Shown here: one piece after another, positions 38,866-63,859 of the stretch
How the letters are laid out: each line of letters starts with the position of its first letter
Position numbering within the stretch: position 1 is the first letter of the stretch
Notes under the pieces: generated by a model
Seen by the model: only the letters and a program-made list of their open reading frames with translations
What the model was told of the DNA's origin: nothing
Database searches by the model: none
Program-made: the position numbers and the translations under genes
Assembly: GCF_002196705.1 (NCBI RefSeq)
Contig: NZ_NADJ01000038.1
Span: 62,001-126,000 of the forward strand
DNA from: Desulfosporosinus sp. FKB
Lineage (GTDB): Bacteria; Bacillota; Desulfitobacteriia; Desulfitobacteriales; Desulfitobacteriaceae
DNA length: 64,000 nt
Direction of reading: 5' to 3'

Positions 38866-39408
38866 TTATTTCTTTTTAGAAAAAAGATTACTGATAAATG
38901 CTTTGATTCCGCCTTTTTTGGGGCTTTCCCAGGCAGGCTGAACAGGCATTTGCCCCCCGTACCCTTGATTAACCATCTGATTTGGATATCCCTGGATTGG
39001 ATAACCTTGGGGCTGATACCCTTGTGGTTGATACCCTTGGCCTTGCGGCATCATTGGTTGCTGCAGCACTTGATTTTGCTGGAAACCTTGCGGCGGATAA
39101 CCGGGAGCAGCGTATCCCTGGCCTCCAGCTTGTGGACCAGGACCCCAGTTTGCATTTCCGCCCATCATCCCACCGGGCATCGTTCCAGCCTGACCGCCTC
39201 CATAGTTATTTGGCAGCTGAGAAAAACCCGGTGGCATAAGCAAACCACCCGGAAGCCCAAACTTAGGTGCGAATCTTTGAAGTCCTCGGCCTAATAATGG
39301 TGAATGGTTAAATTGCCCTGATACATTCGGCATTTGGTAGCCTTGAGTTCCTTGAGGCATCATTTGAACTTGTTGATTCCCAAGTATATTCATTTTACCT
39401 AACGGCAT
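38866..39408 (-). CDS. Gly/Gln/Pro/Tyr-rich low-complexity protein with basic tail
   Basis: This 180-residue protein is not matched to a known family. Its middle is low-complexity, rich in Gly, Gln, Pro, Tyr and Met, with tandem QGYQPQGYQPQGYP-type repeats near residues 125-145. The last 20 residues form a short, possibly amphipathic, basic tail (GGIKAFISNLFSKKK). There is no signal peptide. Such composition is seen in spore-coat and surface or matrix proteins, which is only an analogy. RBS GAGGG precedes the ATG. Confidence 0.6.
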   Translation of the reverse strand: MPLGKMNILGNQQVQMMPQGTQGYQMPNVSGQFNHSPLLGRGLQRFAPKFGLPGGLLMPPGFSQLPNNYGGGQAGTMPGGMMGGNANWGPGPQAGGQGYAAPGYPPQGFQQNQVLQQPMMPQGQGYQPQGYQPQGYPIQGYPNQMVNQGYGGQMPVQPAWESPKKGGIKAFISNLFSKKK

Positions 39409-39846: not shown

Positions 39847-41361
39847 TCATCTGTTAGATAACTTTCTTAAAATATCTCTTTGTTGTATATACTGGCTTCG
39901 ATAGATTATTGAGTTGCTGCTACTTGGACTATATTGATTAGATATTTTTGTGTTCTTTACAAGTGTCGCTGACAAATCCTCGATCGCTCCTGTCGCATAA
40001 GCCGCAATTAGACAATTTGTCAGTACGGCGCCACCAGAAATTTCTAACGTTATAGCTTCACTTTGCATGACATCAGCCTTAATCTGATTCCACAGATTAT
40101 CTCTGCTCCCGCCCTCTGTAATAGTAATTCTGTTAATATCAATTCCGGCATTTCTGTAAGTATCTGTGATTTCCATATAATCGTAAGCAATTGCCTCTAA
40201 GACTGCTCGCCATAAAACAAATTGATCCGTATTTAAATTCATGTTTAAAAAACAACCTTTAATATTAGCCCATTCACCATACCCACCGGTTAAGTATGGT
40301 AAAAACATGACCTCATTGCACCCAGGCGAAACTTTTTCCGCTTTTTGGCTTAGCCATTGATAATATTTATCATCATCAGCCTTTTGACAAATATTATCCT
40401 TGAACCAGCGCAGGGCTAAACCTCCAGTTCTAACAAATCCCCAATAGAAATAGGTATCTTTCAATGTTCCGCTATTAAAAATTAAACCGCTCCCCTTTTT
40501 ACTTAATTCAGGGATTATTCCAGTGGTAGAAACACAGAACATAGCACATGTTCCTGCCACATCAACAGCCTTATTCGCATCAACAATTCCGCTTCCTAAC
40601 ATGGACTGCATTGTATCTCCGGCACCGGCACAAATCGGGATACCTGCTGGACATCCGGTTTCTTGTGCTGCTTCGTCCGATAAGGCACCAATAATATCCC
40701 AAGGTTTAACAATCCTCGGCAGATATGTTTTATCAATCTTTAAGATAGCTAGTTGTTCAGCGGACCATTGTTTTTCATAAATTCGGTAACCAAGACCCCA
40801 GCCCGACATTGTTCCCCAATCAATAAAAGCGTCACGACTGTCTAAGCCGGCCAAGTTCATAAGAATGTAAGGAGCATTGTGGACAAATTTTTTGCCTCTT
40901 TCCTGAAACGCTTTATTATTGGCTAACAACCACCTGGCGTGCAAAGCAGGAAACATGCAAGATGGTTCAGCATTGCCTGTCTCTTTGCCCCAAATATCCA
41001 GATCCAATTGATTTAAAATTTCCACATCGTTTTGGGTCCTGGAATCCAAATAATTGATGTAAGGAGTAATCGCCTTTCCTCTCTCGTCAATCCCAACAAT
41101 TCCACAAATAATTCCGTCACCCATAATGGCTCTAATTAAACTGGGATCAATACCCTTGGTATGCAATTGCTCAATACATTGTTTAATTCCTAATTTTGTC
41201 AGGGATAAATATTCATCAGCATCCATATCCACCCATCCTGGATGGGGGTAGTTCATCGTTGTCTGATTGGATGTATTAGCAACACAGTGCATCGTTTCAT
41301 TATAAACAGCCACTTTTACGCTTTGAGATCCCGCATCAAAACTCAGATAGTAGCTTTCCAA
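39847..41361 (-). CDS. FGGY-family carbohydrate kinase under an FMN riboswitch
   Basis: TTG 41361 is preferred (9 bases from AAGGGAG); the ATG at 41370 touches the ribosome site directly. The 504-residue protein has the FGGY two-domain kinase layout: phosphate loop YLSFDAGSQSVKVAVYNE, catalytic aspartate in CAGAGDTMQSMLGSG, and LPYLTGGYGEWANIKGCF in place of the usual GERxP signature. The family phosphorylates sugars such as xylulose, ribulose or glycerol; the altered signature leaves the substrate open. The gene is alone and its leader contains an FMN riboswitch and terminator, which is unusual for a sugar kinase. Confidence 0.88.
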   Translation of the reverse strand: MESYYLSFDAGSQSVKVAVYNETMHCVANTSNQTTMNYPHPGWVDMDADEYLSLTKLGIKQCIEQLHTKGIDPSLIRAIMGDGIICGIVGIDERGKAITPYINYLDSRTQNDVEILNQLDLDIWGKETGNAEPSCMFPALHARWLLANNKAFQERGKKFVHNAPYILMNLAGLDSRDAFIDWGTMSGWGLGYRIYEKQWSAEQLAILKIDKTYLPRIVKPWDIIGALSDEAAQETGCPAGIPICAGAGDTMQSMLGSGIVDANKAVDVAGTCAMFCVSTTGIIPELSKKGSGLIFNSGTLKDTYFYWGFVRTGGLALRWFKDNICQKADDDKYYQWLSQKAEKVSPGCNEVMFLPYLTGGYGEWANIKGCFLNMNLNTDQFVLWRAVLEAIAYDYMEITDTYRNAGIDINRITITEGGSRDNLWNQIKADVMQSEAITLEISGGAVLTNCLIAAYATGAIEDLSATLVKNTKISNQYSPSSSNSIIYRSQYIQQRDILRKLSNR

Positions 41362-41396
41362 CGTAACCATCTCCCTTAGTGTTATACCCTAATAAA

Positions 41397-41426
41397 AAAT
41401 TCTCTTAAGCAACCTTAAGAGAATTT
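41397..41426 (-). terminator. Leader terminator between the FMN riboswitch and the kinase gene
   Basis: A perfect 13-bp stem (AAATTCTCTTAAG and complement, loop of 4) ends in a T-run on the minus strand, 36 bases before the kinase start. It lies downstream of the aptamer, with another hairpin (arms TACATAAT, 41443-41462) between. This is the layout of an FMN-controlled OFF switch. Confidence 0.88.
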
Positions 41427-41468
41427 GACAGGACAAACTTAATACATAATATCAATTATGTATATACA

Positions 41469-41578
41469 TCACCTTCTCTCATCCAGACTATACTGTCGGC
41501 TTCGGAATTCAACCGAATCTGCTTTACGGCTCGCGGGCTATACCGCCGATAGGGAATTTCACCCAACCCTGAAGGATA
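41469..41578 (-). ncRNA. FMN riboswitch (RFN element)
   Basis: The minus strand carries the RFN conserved blocks in order: CCTTCAGGGTTGGGTGAAAT, then TTCCCTATCGGCGGTATAG, CCCGCGAGCC, TTCCGAAGCCGACAGTATAG and TCTGGATGAGAGAAGGTGA. The closing stem pairs CCTTC with GAAGG. It normally controls riboflavin synthesis or uptake genes. Here the next gene is the FGGY kinase. The promoter must lie near the end of the YkgJ-type gene (stop 41626). Confidence 0.96.
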
Positions 41579-41625
41579 ATTATTAACTTAATTATAAGGT
41601 AACACCATTGATTCTCTTTGTCAAT

Positions 41626-59100: not shown

Positions 59101-59188
59101 TGGTGCCGATGACCGGAATCGAACCGGTACGGGCTATTAACCCGCGGGATTTTAAGTCCCGTGCGTCTGCCAGTTCCGCCACATCGGC
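59101..59188 (-). tRNA. tRNA-Leu (anticodon TAA)
   Basis: This 88-nt gene has a long variable arm and encoded CCA. The acceptor GCCGATG pairs with the end of the T-arm flank, the anticodon loop reads ACTTAAAAT and the T-loop GGTTCGATTCC is standard. It is the last gene of the cluster. Confidence 0.95.
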
Positions 59189-59191
59189 AAT

Positions 59192-59266
59192 TGGAGGCGG
59201 CACCCTGAATCGAACGAGGGGATCGAGGTTTTGCGGACCTCTGCCTTACCACTTGGCTATGCCGCC
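59192..59266 (-). tRNA. tRNA-Cys (anticodon GCA)
   Basis: This 75-nt gene has acceptor GGCGGCA and anticodon loop GTCCGCAAAA. The T-stem (CCTCG/CAGGG) carries one C-A mismatch (positions 52 and 62). CCA is encoded. Confidence 0.93.
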
Positions 59267-59277
59267 ATAAGAATTAC

Positions 59278-59351
59278 TGGAGCGGGTGATGAGAATCGAA
59301 CTCACGTAGCTAGCTTGGAAGGCTAGTGCTCTACCATTGAGCTACACCCGC
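59278..59351 (-). tRNA. tRNA-Gly (anticodon TCC)
   Basis: This 74-nt gene has acceptor GCGGGTG, anticodon loop CCTTCCAAG and an encoded CCA. The cloverleaf is normal. Confidence 0.95.
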
Positions 59352-59357
59352 AATGAA

Positions 59358-59432
59358 TGGCTCCCCGAGTAGGACTCGAACCTACAACCTACCGGTTAAC
59401 AGCCGGTTGCTCCACCATTGAGCTATCGAGGA
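59358..59432 (-). tRNA. tRNA-Asn (anticodon GTT)
   Basis: This 75-nt gene has acceptor TCCTCGA (with a wobble pair to GGGGA), anticodon loop CTGTTAACC and encoded CCA. Confidence 0.95.
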
Positions 59433-59439
59433 ATGTGTC

Positions 59440-59530
59440 TGGCGGAGAAGGAGGGATTTGAACCCTCGCGGCAGTTACCCACCCTAACGGTTTAGCAAAC
59501 CGTCCTCTTCAGCCACTTGAGTACTTCTCC
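59440..59530 (-). tRNA. tRNA-Ser (anticodon GCT)
   Basis: This 91-nt gene has acceptor GGAGAAG, anticodon loop TTTGCTAAA, a long variable arm and encoded CCA. Confidence 0.95.
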
Positions 59531-59541
59531 AAGTATATTTT

Positions 59542-59626
59542 TGGTGCGGAAGACGGGACTTGAACCCGTACGGAGTTACCCACACGCCCCTCAAACGTGC
59601 GCGTCTGCCAATTACGCCACTCCCGC
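59542..59626 (-). tRNA. tRNA-Leu (anticodon GAG)
   Basis: This 85-nt gene has acceptor GCGGGAG, anticodon stem CACGT (with a terminal T-G wobble), loop TTGAGGG, a variable arm and encoded CCA. Confidence 0.93.
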
Positions 59627-59632
59627 AATAAA

Positions 59633-59708
59633 TGGAGCCATTGACCGGGATTGAACCGGTGACCTTATCCTTACCAAGGATACGCTCTACCGACTGAGCT
59701 ACAATGGC
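59633..59708 (-). tRNA. tRNA-Thr (anticodon GGT)
   Basis: This 76-nt gene has acceptor GCCATTG, anticodon loop CTTGGTAAG and encoded CCA. Confidence 0.95.
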
Positions 59709-59716
59709 ATGTATAA

Positions 59717-59805
59717 TGGCGGAGGGGGTGGGATTCGAACCCACGGCCCCTTGCGGAGTCACTGGTTTTCAAGACCAGCTCCTTAAACCACTCGGACACC
59801 CCTCC
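59717..59805 (-). tRNA. tRNA-Ser (anticodon TGA)
   Basis: This 89-nt gene has acceptor GGAGGGG, anticodon loop TCTTGAAAA, a long variable arm and encoded CCA. It is the first gene of the eight-tRNA operon. Confidence 0.95.
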
Positions 59806-62813: not shown

Positions 62814-62965
62814 TTGGTCTGGACTCTAATTATGTAAACCATACCACGAACTATATTAAAACGATTTGTATAAAAATGGTTCCTTGCCAAATATTACACA
62901 TTTCATTTTAAAGGATATTGGCGAATACTGTCGAATTCTTGTTTATGAAAATATAGACAAGAAAA

Positions 62966-63085
62966 ATAAAGCTGAATCTGGAAATTATTCCAGAGCGGGG
63001 GATTTTATTTCTAAACGGGGTGAATCGCCGCTATGGCGTAGGGCTGTTACCTTTTGTCCGAATCCGACAACTAACCTCGTAAGCT
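62966..63085 (+). ncRNA. c-di-AMP riboswitch (ydaO/yuaA type)
   Basis: The consensus features are present in order: GCTGAATCTGG, CCAGAGCGGGGGA, CGGGGTGAATCGCCGC, GTAGGGCTGTTACCTTTTG, TCCGAATCCGACAACTAACC and TCGTAAGC. The element ends 18 bases before the start of the NlpC/P60 gene it precedes, which is a classic target of this riboswitch. No separate terminator fits between the aptamer and the start, so control of translation or within the aptamer itself is inferred. Confidence 0.93.
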
Positions 63086-63103
63086 ATGAAAGGTGAAAAG
63101 GTA

Positions 63104-63859
63104 ATGAAATTGTCTCCAGCCCTGTCTCAACTATCAGGTGTCATTCTATCCGGAATGCTCTTGGTAGGGAATGTTTTAGTTCCATCAACGTCACAAACCT
63201 TGGGTTTCAATTCTTTCATGAATTCTAGTGCCTCAACGTCCTCTTCAACGTCAGTCATTGTTCCACAATTTATTCACCAACAGTTATCTTCACAGAAAAC
63301 TGATCCAATCTTTACAACAATACCAACCGTGATGGCAGCAATACCAAAGGAGAATCAAGTTCAGACGAAAACTACGCAAACAGCAGAAATCTCTCCGCCT
63401 GAAAGTACGTCATCCGTACATATGATTCAAGTTGCTCAGGCCGCGTCAAATAATACTATGAATGATGAGGCCAATGTATCTCGCGGCAGCAGTAACCATT
63501 CTGACATCATCGATCATGCTGTAAGTTTAGTTGGAAAGCCCTATGTTTTTGGCGGGACATCGCTAAAGGGATTTGATTGTTCCGGATTTACTCAGTATGT
63601 TTTCGCTGGATCCGGTATTACTCTTCCGCGAACGTCTTATGCTCAATATGCTTCAGGCGGTTCTGTCAGCAAGAGTAACCTCCAACCGGGTGACTTAGTT
63701 TTCTTTTCAACGTATTCTAAGGGAGCGTCTCACGTAGGTATTTATATCGGCGGCGGAAAATTTGTTCATGCTGATAACCCTAAAAAAGGGGTAACTATTA
63801 CTAGCCTGAGTGACAGCTTTTATGTTAAAAATTATCTTGGAGCTCGAAGGTATAAATAA
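63104..63859 (+). CDS. Secreted NlpC/P60 peptidoglycan endopeptidase
   Basis: The start ATG 63104 follows AAAAGG; a frame start at 63086 lies at the edge of the riboswitch and is less likely. The 251-residue protein has a signal peptide (LSGVILSGMLLVGNVLVPS), a Ser/Thr-rich linker, then the NlpC/P60 domain (about 145-251) with Cys in FDCSGFTQYVF, His in ASHVGIYIG and His in FVHADN. It cleaves peptidoglycan stem peptides. Its expression is set by c-di-AMP, which tracks osmotic and wall stress. It resembles the domain of the protein at 43157. Confidence 0.94.
   Translation: MKLSPALSQLSGVILSGMLLVGNVLVPSTSQTLGFNSFMNSSASTSSSTSVIVPQFIHQQLSSQKTDPIFTTIPTVMAAIPKENQVQTKTTQTAEISPPESTSSVHMIQVAQAASNNTMNDEANVSRGSSNHSDIIDHAVSLVGKPYVFGGTSLKGFDCSGFTQYVFAGSGITLPRTSYAQYASGGSVSKSNLQPGDLVFFSTYSKGASHVGIYIGGGKFVHADNPKKGVTITSLSDSFYVKNYLGARRYK

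Follow-up and report, generated by a model that had tools for sequence, protein, structure and literature searches.

A conserved FMN riboswitch-FGGY kinase pair and the loss of RibB suggest a second route to the four-carbon unit of riboflavin

A survey of the FMN regulon lists riboflavin synthesis and transport genes only (PMC3766115), and the first-pass annotation of the DNA analysed here likewise named synthesis and uptake genes as the known targets of FMN riboswitches. This agrees with the survey but not with the listing, in Clostridium ljungdahlii, of an FMN-riboswitch-linked carbohydrate kinase with 'no obvious role', CLJU_c14910 (PMC4418817). No literature joining an FMN riboswitch with an FGGY or xylulose kinase was found, the wording in PMC4418817 being 'carbohydrate kinase'. 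The link between switch and kinase was known before in this one species only; here it extends to 25 loci from several genera, is accompanied by terminators and goes together with the loss of RibB, a tie that is new. Riboflavin synthesis itself is described as a single route, and genome-based vitamin predictions score RibB as present or absent (PMC4403557, PMC6593275).

Among described enzymes, the xylulokinase XylB (2itm) shares the FGGY fold and the catalytic layout with the kinase studied here, and it phosphorylates the terminal hydroxyl of ketoses, 1-deoxyketoses included: pyruvate dehydrogenase joins pyruvate and glyceraldehyde to 1-deoxy-D-xylulose, which XylB, itself an FGGY kinase, phosphorylates to DXP (PMC3424233). 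The two proteins are, however, about 23% identical, the kinase falls far below the XylB family cut-off, and FMN control is not known for XylB. The autoinducer-2 kinase LsrK (5ya0-5ya2) is an FGGY kinase acting on a small relative of methyl-ketone sugars and matches the kinase over the full-length fold (Z 39), but the identity is about 20%, the kinase lies below the LsrK family cut-off, and operon and role differ. RibB and RibBA, which are often under an FMN switch too, would have their product, DHBP, in common with the kinase; their fold is unrelated, their reaction releases formate as ribulose 5-phosphate is turned into DHBP, and several kinase-bearing lineages have them in a dead form or not at all.

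The kinase gene lies in a stretch of 64,000 nucleotides from Desulfosporosinus sp. FKB (hereafter the window), and the features of the locus are collected in Table 1. The ORF is complete, with both FGGY_N and FGGY_C domains. Its ATG at 41370 touches a Shine-Dalgarno-like AAGGGAG, whereas a TTG at 41361 (residue 4) has a spacing of about 9 nt and is aligned with the start codon (ATG) of the orthologue in Clostridium magnum; this TTG is therefore the more likely start, and the gene would then span 39847-41361 and encode 504 aa. The kinase is the lone gene behind the switch, as the first-pass annotation had claimed, since the next gene on the same strand (38866-39408) starts about 440 bases downstream; the latter encodes a Gly/Pro/Gln-rich protein of 180 aa, in which repeats resemble GYQPQGYPIQGYP, and had no Pfam match.

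Table 1. Features of the riboswitch-kinase locus, in window coordinates.
Feature	Position	Strand	Evidence
FMN riboswitch aptamer (RFN element, RF00050)	41467..41580	-	cmscan 113.5 bits, E 1.1e-25, model 1-138 of 138
Aptamer 3′ strand TGAGAGAA, also predicted antiterminator 5′ arm	41474..41481	-	sequence; predicted fold
Middle hairpin, between aptamer and terminator	41442..41463	-	-6.4 kcal/mol
Intrinsic terminator, 13-bp stem and U run	41397..41426	-	-14.7 kcal/mol
Terminator 5′ arm TTCTCTTA, predicted antiterminator partner	41416..41423	-	predicted fold
FGGY kinase ORF	39847..41370	-	PF00370 E 3e-35, PF02782 E 8e-18; both over cut-off
Family-specific segment GDGIICGI, residues 84-91	41098..41121	-	nearly invariant in 44 orthologues
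Asp252 codon (GAGDTM), FGGY catalytic base position	40615..40617	-	invariant in 44 orthologues

The Pfam matches of the kinase included neither the flavokinase domain (PF01687, RibF), for which the genome has a separate RibF, nor the DHBP synthase domain (PF00926, RibB). Every NCBIfam equivalog model scored the kinase below its cut-off; the best was xylulokinase XylB (TIGR01312, 199.9 versus 380.25 bits), and the glycerol, gluconate, AI-2, L-fuculose, ribulose and rhamnulose kinase models were all under cut-off as well. The predicted structure has the full FGGY fold (pLDDT 91) and matched FGGY kinases with Z 35-44; the best solved structures were 20-25% identical and no closer relative was seen among them. 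The segment around Asp252 aligns with GGGD of E. coli xylulokinase 2itm, which places the catalytic Asp in a GxGD motif, and alignment to 2itm and 5vm1 showed that GDGIICGI stands where xylulokinases have GQMHG, so that GIICG in the kinase corresponds to GQMHG in XylB. The signature loop of the kinase had been called altered, and this alteration is real; LPYLTGG is kept through the family. Well over a hundred columns are invariant among the 44 aligned orthologues. Judged from these alignments and scores, the kinase is a distinct FGGY family, and its conservation across phyla suggests that its members have a single function in common.

The aptamer upstream of the kinase was detected by cmscan over the whole model, with 113.5 bits compared to the RF00050 gathering score of 66.2. 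Folding of the region 41490-41412 predicted an antiterminator of -17.0 kcal/mol, in which TGAGAGAA (41481-41474) pairs with TTCTCTTA (41423-41416) and which could form while the 3′ arm of the terminator is still unmade. As this pairing uses the 5′ arm of the terminator, the antiterminator and terminator states are mutually exclusive, as in an OFF switch, and the architecture of this expression platform is conserved in the family. By these predicted folds, the leader has the usual OFF-switch layout, with transcription expected to stop when FMN is bound. The complete FMN OFF-switch leader of the first-pass annotation was thereby borne out, its terminator and middle hairpin folding as proposed.

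We found 50 kinase loci, with 58-92% identity, in gut bacteria and other anaerobes: Desulfosporosinus, Clostridium, Lachnospiraceae-type bacteria, Negativicutes, one Synergistales bacterium and Sutterellaceae. The closest orthologue (92% identical) is that of D. acididurans, and since only two of the 30 searched genomes of the genus have a close orthologue, the kinase of the window's genome was perhaps acquired by transfer. The kinase of the C. ljungdahlii locus (L008) is 78% identical, is preceded by the switch and is taken to be CLJU_c14910. In 25 of the 38 non-proteobacterial loci, a pattern scan together with Rfam placed an FMN riboswitch just 5′ of the kinase on the same strand, a placement with a chance of about 2e-4 per genome; it was absent before the kinase in the other 13 non-proteobacterial loci and in Sutterellaceae. 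Of 26 leaders (window included), 25 have a terminator-like hairpin separating the aptamer from the start codon; the sequences of these hairpins differ. No conserved operon partner of the kinase was found, its neighbours being ordinary-looking and changing from genus to genus, and this variation between lineages indicates that the kinase itself is the target of the switch.

The riboswitch-kinase pair is real, conserved and part of riboflavin metabolism. Orthologues without the switch would have counted against the first-pass annotation, and its recurrence upstream of them favours the link; the role in flavin metabolism which had been raised as one explanation of the pair holds up. The other explanation, that a rib gene was lost and the kinase slid under its switch, is contradicted by the recurrence of the pair across genera with differing neighbours and by the retention, in the window's genome, of an FMN-switched ribD-ribE-ribBA-ribH operon of its own. 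This genome has three FMN riboswitches, located before that operon, before the kinase and before an EamA-family transporter. The transporter behind this third riboswitch (L085 4470-5459, contig C27) belongs to the superfamily of RibN. In Eubacterium sp. An11, the riboswitch-linked kinase has a second, xylulokinase-like FGGY kinase with the motif GQMMG (L017 3194-4711) encoded about 1.3 kb upstream of it.

Kinase-bearing genomes nearly always keep RibF (46 of 48) and RibH (44 of 48), and so appear to make riboflavin. The first count rejected the kinase as an alternative riboflavin kinase replacing a missing RibF, and the second rejected it as a salvage enzyme of riboflavin auxotrophs. RibB is intact in the window's own genome, as in most kinase-bearing Bacillota outside one clade, formed by 12 kinase-bearing Lachnospiraceae-type genomes of Anaerobutyricum hallii and relatives (L118-L129). 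In the RibB (DHBP synthase) half of their RibBA, R37, D42, H153 and E174 are all replaced in 12 of 12 genomes and H136 and E40 vary too; all of these are kept in the RibBs of the 29 other genomes checked, which include seven kinase-free Lachnospiraceae. The numbering follows the E. coli RibB sequence, with which the alignment of live RibBs agrees at every position used. Equivalent residues hold the inhibitor and the metal in fungal DHBP synthase (PMC12268802), and in Vibrio the equivalents of E38, E40 and H153 are required for DHBP synthase activity (PMC5228156). The 12 RibB halves also score lower (188-223 bits versus 271-312). On the residues lost, the RibB half of these genomes is catalytically dead, and no second RibB was found in them (one match each).

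RibH is kept in the RibB-dead genomes, and with RibB dead their DHBP would have to come from elsewhere. The two halves of the fused protein have also diverged in constraint. In the 12 proteins the mean identity is 89% for the RibA half and 62% for the RibB half, whereas the halves of live RibBA are equally conserved (62% and 65%), and in close pairs the dN/dS is about 0.01-0.07 for the RibA half versus 0.07-0.3 for the RibB half, corresponding to a roughly tenfold stronger purifying selection on RibA. A constrained RibA next to a relaxed RibB half implies that the pathway is maintained and RibB catalysis is not. The dead half keeps its full length and is under moderate selection, with dN/dS below 1; it is possibly a scaffold for RibA. 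A literature search for growth of A. hallii without riboflavin retrieved no report.

Further losses of RibB accompany the kinase outside this clade. In the isolate Anaerostipes sp. 992a, a ribD-ribE-ribA-ribH operon has lost the greater part of the RibB domain by deletion; the Synergistales bacterium has a ribD-ribE-ribA-ribH operon with RibA alone, without RibB; and all seven kinase-bearing Sutterellaceae checked have RibH and lack RibB. Among 100 Burkholderiales, sampled as relatives of Dakarella massiliensis, RibB was missing in 16, and the kinase was present in 14 of these compared to 11 of the 84 RibB-bearing genomes (Fisher p 9e-9), where such Fisher values overstate independence because the dead RibBs form a single clade. 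The two RibB-less genomes without the kinase are G330 and G352. In a sample of 200 Lachnospiraceae genomes, RibH was present in 79, of which 75 are kinase-free; 73 of these 75 have a full-scoring RibB and none has a dead one, the two others showing a RibB fragment and a RibH at a contig edge, respectively. In the kinase tree the dead-RibB genomes fall into one clade and the losses in Anaerostipes, Sutterellaceae and Synergistales are placed elsewhere, which makes about four separate events of RibB loss. A. hallii DSM 3353, Eubacterium sp. An11, Anaerostipes sp. 992a, Dakarella massiliensis and Mesosutterella multiformis are isolates, and some of the other genomes are metagenome bins.

The Sutterellaceae are weaker evidence for a bypass of RibB, since their riboflavin pathway has a further gap: no Sutterellaceae genome searched, with or without RibB, had a match to RibA (GTP cyclohydrolase II, PF00925), G076, G080, G089, G090, G093, G094, G095, G096 and G107 being among them. 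A survey of gut vitamins treated RibA as not required, as it is undetected in some prototrophs (PMC6593275). The genes ribD, ribE and ribH stay together in Sutterellaceae, and it is likely that another enzyme replaces RibA there in the first step of riboflavin synthesis.

The loss of RibB in kinase-bearing lineages suggests a second, undescribed route to the C4 building block. We propose that the kinase, with ATP, would phosphorylate L-3,4-dihydroxy-2-butanone (a 1-deoxytetrulose) at its terminal hydroxyl to DHBP, the same four-carbon unit that RibB usually draws from ribulose 5-phosphate, and that lumazine synthase (RibH) would then join it to 5-amino-6-ribitylaminouracil. At low FMN the antiterminator would form and the kinase would be made, and at high FMN the terminator would form instead. 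FMN control of the kinase makes sense for a bypass opened when flavin runs short. Where RibB is live, as in the Desulfosporosinus of the window, the kinase would add an FMN-controlled route to DHBP alongside RibB, and in dead-RibB genomes its route would be the sole one. That the kinase replaces or supplements RibB by forming DHBP from 3,4-dihydroxy-2-butanone has, in our estimation, about an even chance of being correct. The broader proposal of a RibB-independent C4 route through this FGGY kinase in Clostridia, Negativicutes, Synergistota and gut Burkholderiales, often FMN-switched and replacing RibB in several lineages, we hold more tentatively, at slightly short of even.

We infer both the substrate of the kinase and the source of that substrate. 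The dihydroxybutanone might, speculatively, be taken up or arise from glycolaldehyde and pyruvate-derived acetaldehyde through a thiamine-diphosphate enzyme; by analogy with the formation of 1-deoxy-D-xylulose, a reaction of the pyruvate dehydrogenase type with glycolaldehyde would give dihydroxybutanone. A gene for the formation of this compound was not found, and the genes next to the kinase vary.

A kinase acting as ribulokinase or xylulokinase, and feeding ribulose 5-phosphate to RibB at low FMN, would suit the many kinase-bearing Bacillota with a live RibB as well as the nearest named relatives, which are xylulokinases (200 bits with the XylB model, and 2itm as best profile match). It is nevertheless unlikely, being senseless where RibB is dead or gone, precisely where the kinase is kept, and the score is far under the XylB cut-off of 380 with the substrate motif changed from QMHG to IICG. 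Ribulose 5-phosphate is, besides, normally supplied by the pentose phosphate pathway. Ribitol and ribulose kinases belong to the FGGY kinases, and this, like the FMN control of the kinase, would fit a salvage of flavins or ribityl sugars, with riboflavin, ribitol or a flavin breakdown product as substrate. Such a salvage had been put forward in the first-pass annotation and is not favoured by our results; we consider it rather improbable. RibF and RibH are kept at the counts given above, an FMN OFF switch would turn on the consumption of breakdown products under flavin shortage, and the tracking of RibB loss by the kinase is left unexplained. Anaerobic riboflavin breakdown does occur in Lachnospiraceae (PMC12934955), which would speak for salvage, but the riboflavin-induced neighbourhood of C. 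scindens has a RibF homologue, and no FGGY kinase is named in the text consulted.

The RibB-dead genomes might also obtain their C4 unit without the kinase, for example from diacetyl and 5-amino-6-ribitylaminouracil, or be becoming auxotrophs, the kinase doing something else under FMN control. Diacetyl can rescue some yeast riboflavin mutants blocked at the C4 step, and the flavin of the gut and of rich media could mask auxotrophy. Against this, the 12 RibB-dead genomes keep RibH and show strong purifying selection on RibA, and both the FMN switch of the kinase and its co-occurrence with RibB loss would go unexplained, so that we find this quite improbable. The least probable explanation, to which we give a very small chance, is that the kinase serves some other flavin-demanding process, such as sugar use or redox balance, and that its tie to RibB reflects shared gut ancestry and gene transfer; the patchy, transfer-like distribution (two of 30 genomes in the genus) and the single clade of dead RibBs are in line with it, but RibB was lost at separate places in three phyla and the 73 kinase-free Lachnospiraceae mentioned above have a full-scoring RibB.

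What is new in the proposed formation of DHBP by the kinase is a step of a vitamin pathway, riboswitch and kinase fold being already known. If true, the kinase bypass would be a new enzyme in vitamin B2 synthesis and would account for a target of the FMN riboswitch that has had no explanation since 2015. Gut bacteria such as Anaerobutyricum hallii carry a RibB that can be annotated although it is dead, and many Sutterellaceae have none, so that either the genome-based predictions fail for them or a bypass exists.

Elsewhere in the window, a c-di-AMP riboswitch (85.6 bits, 62960-63100, plus strand) lies directly 5′ of what was judged by eye to be a secreted NlpC/P60 cell-wall hydrolase (63086-63859), an ordinary target, and a cluster of eight tRNA genes occupies 59104-59805 on the minus strand.
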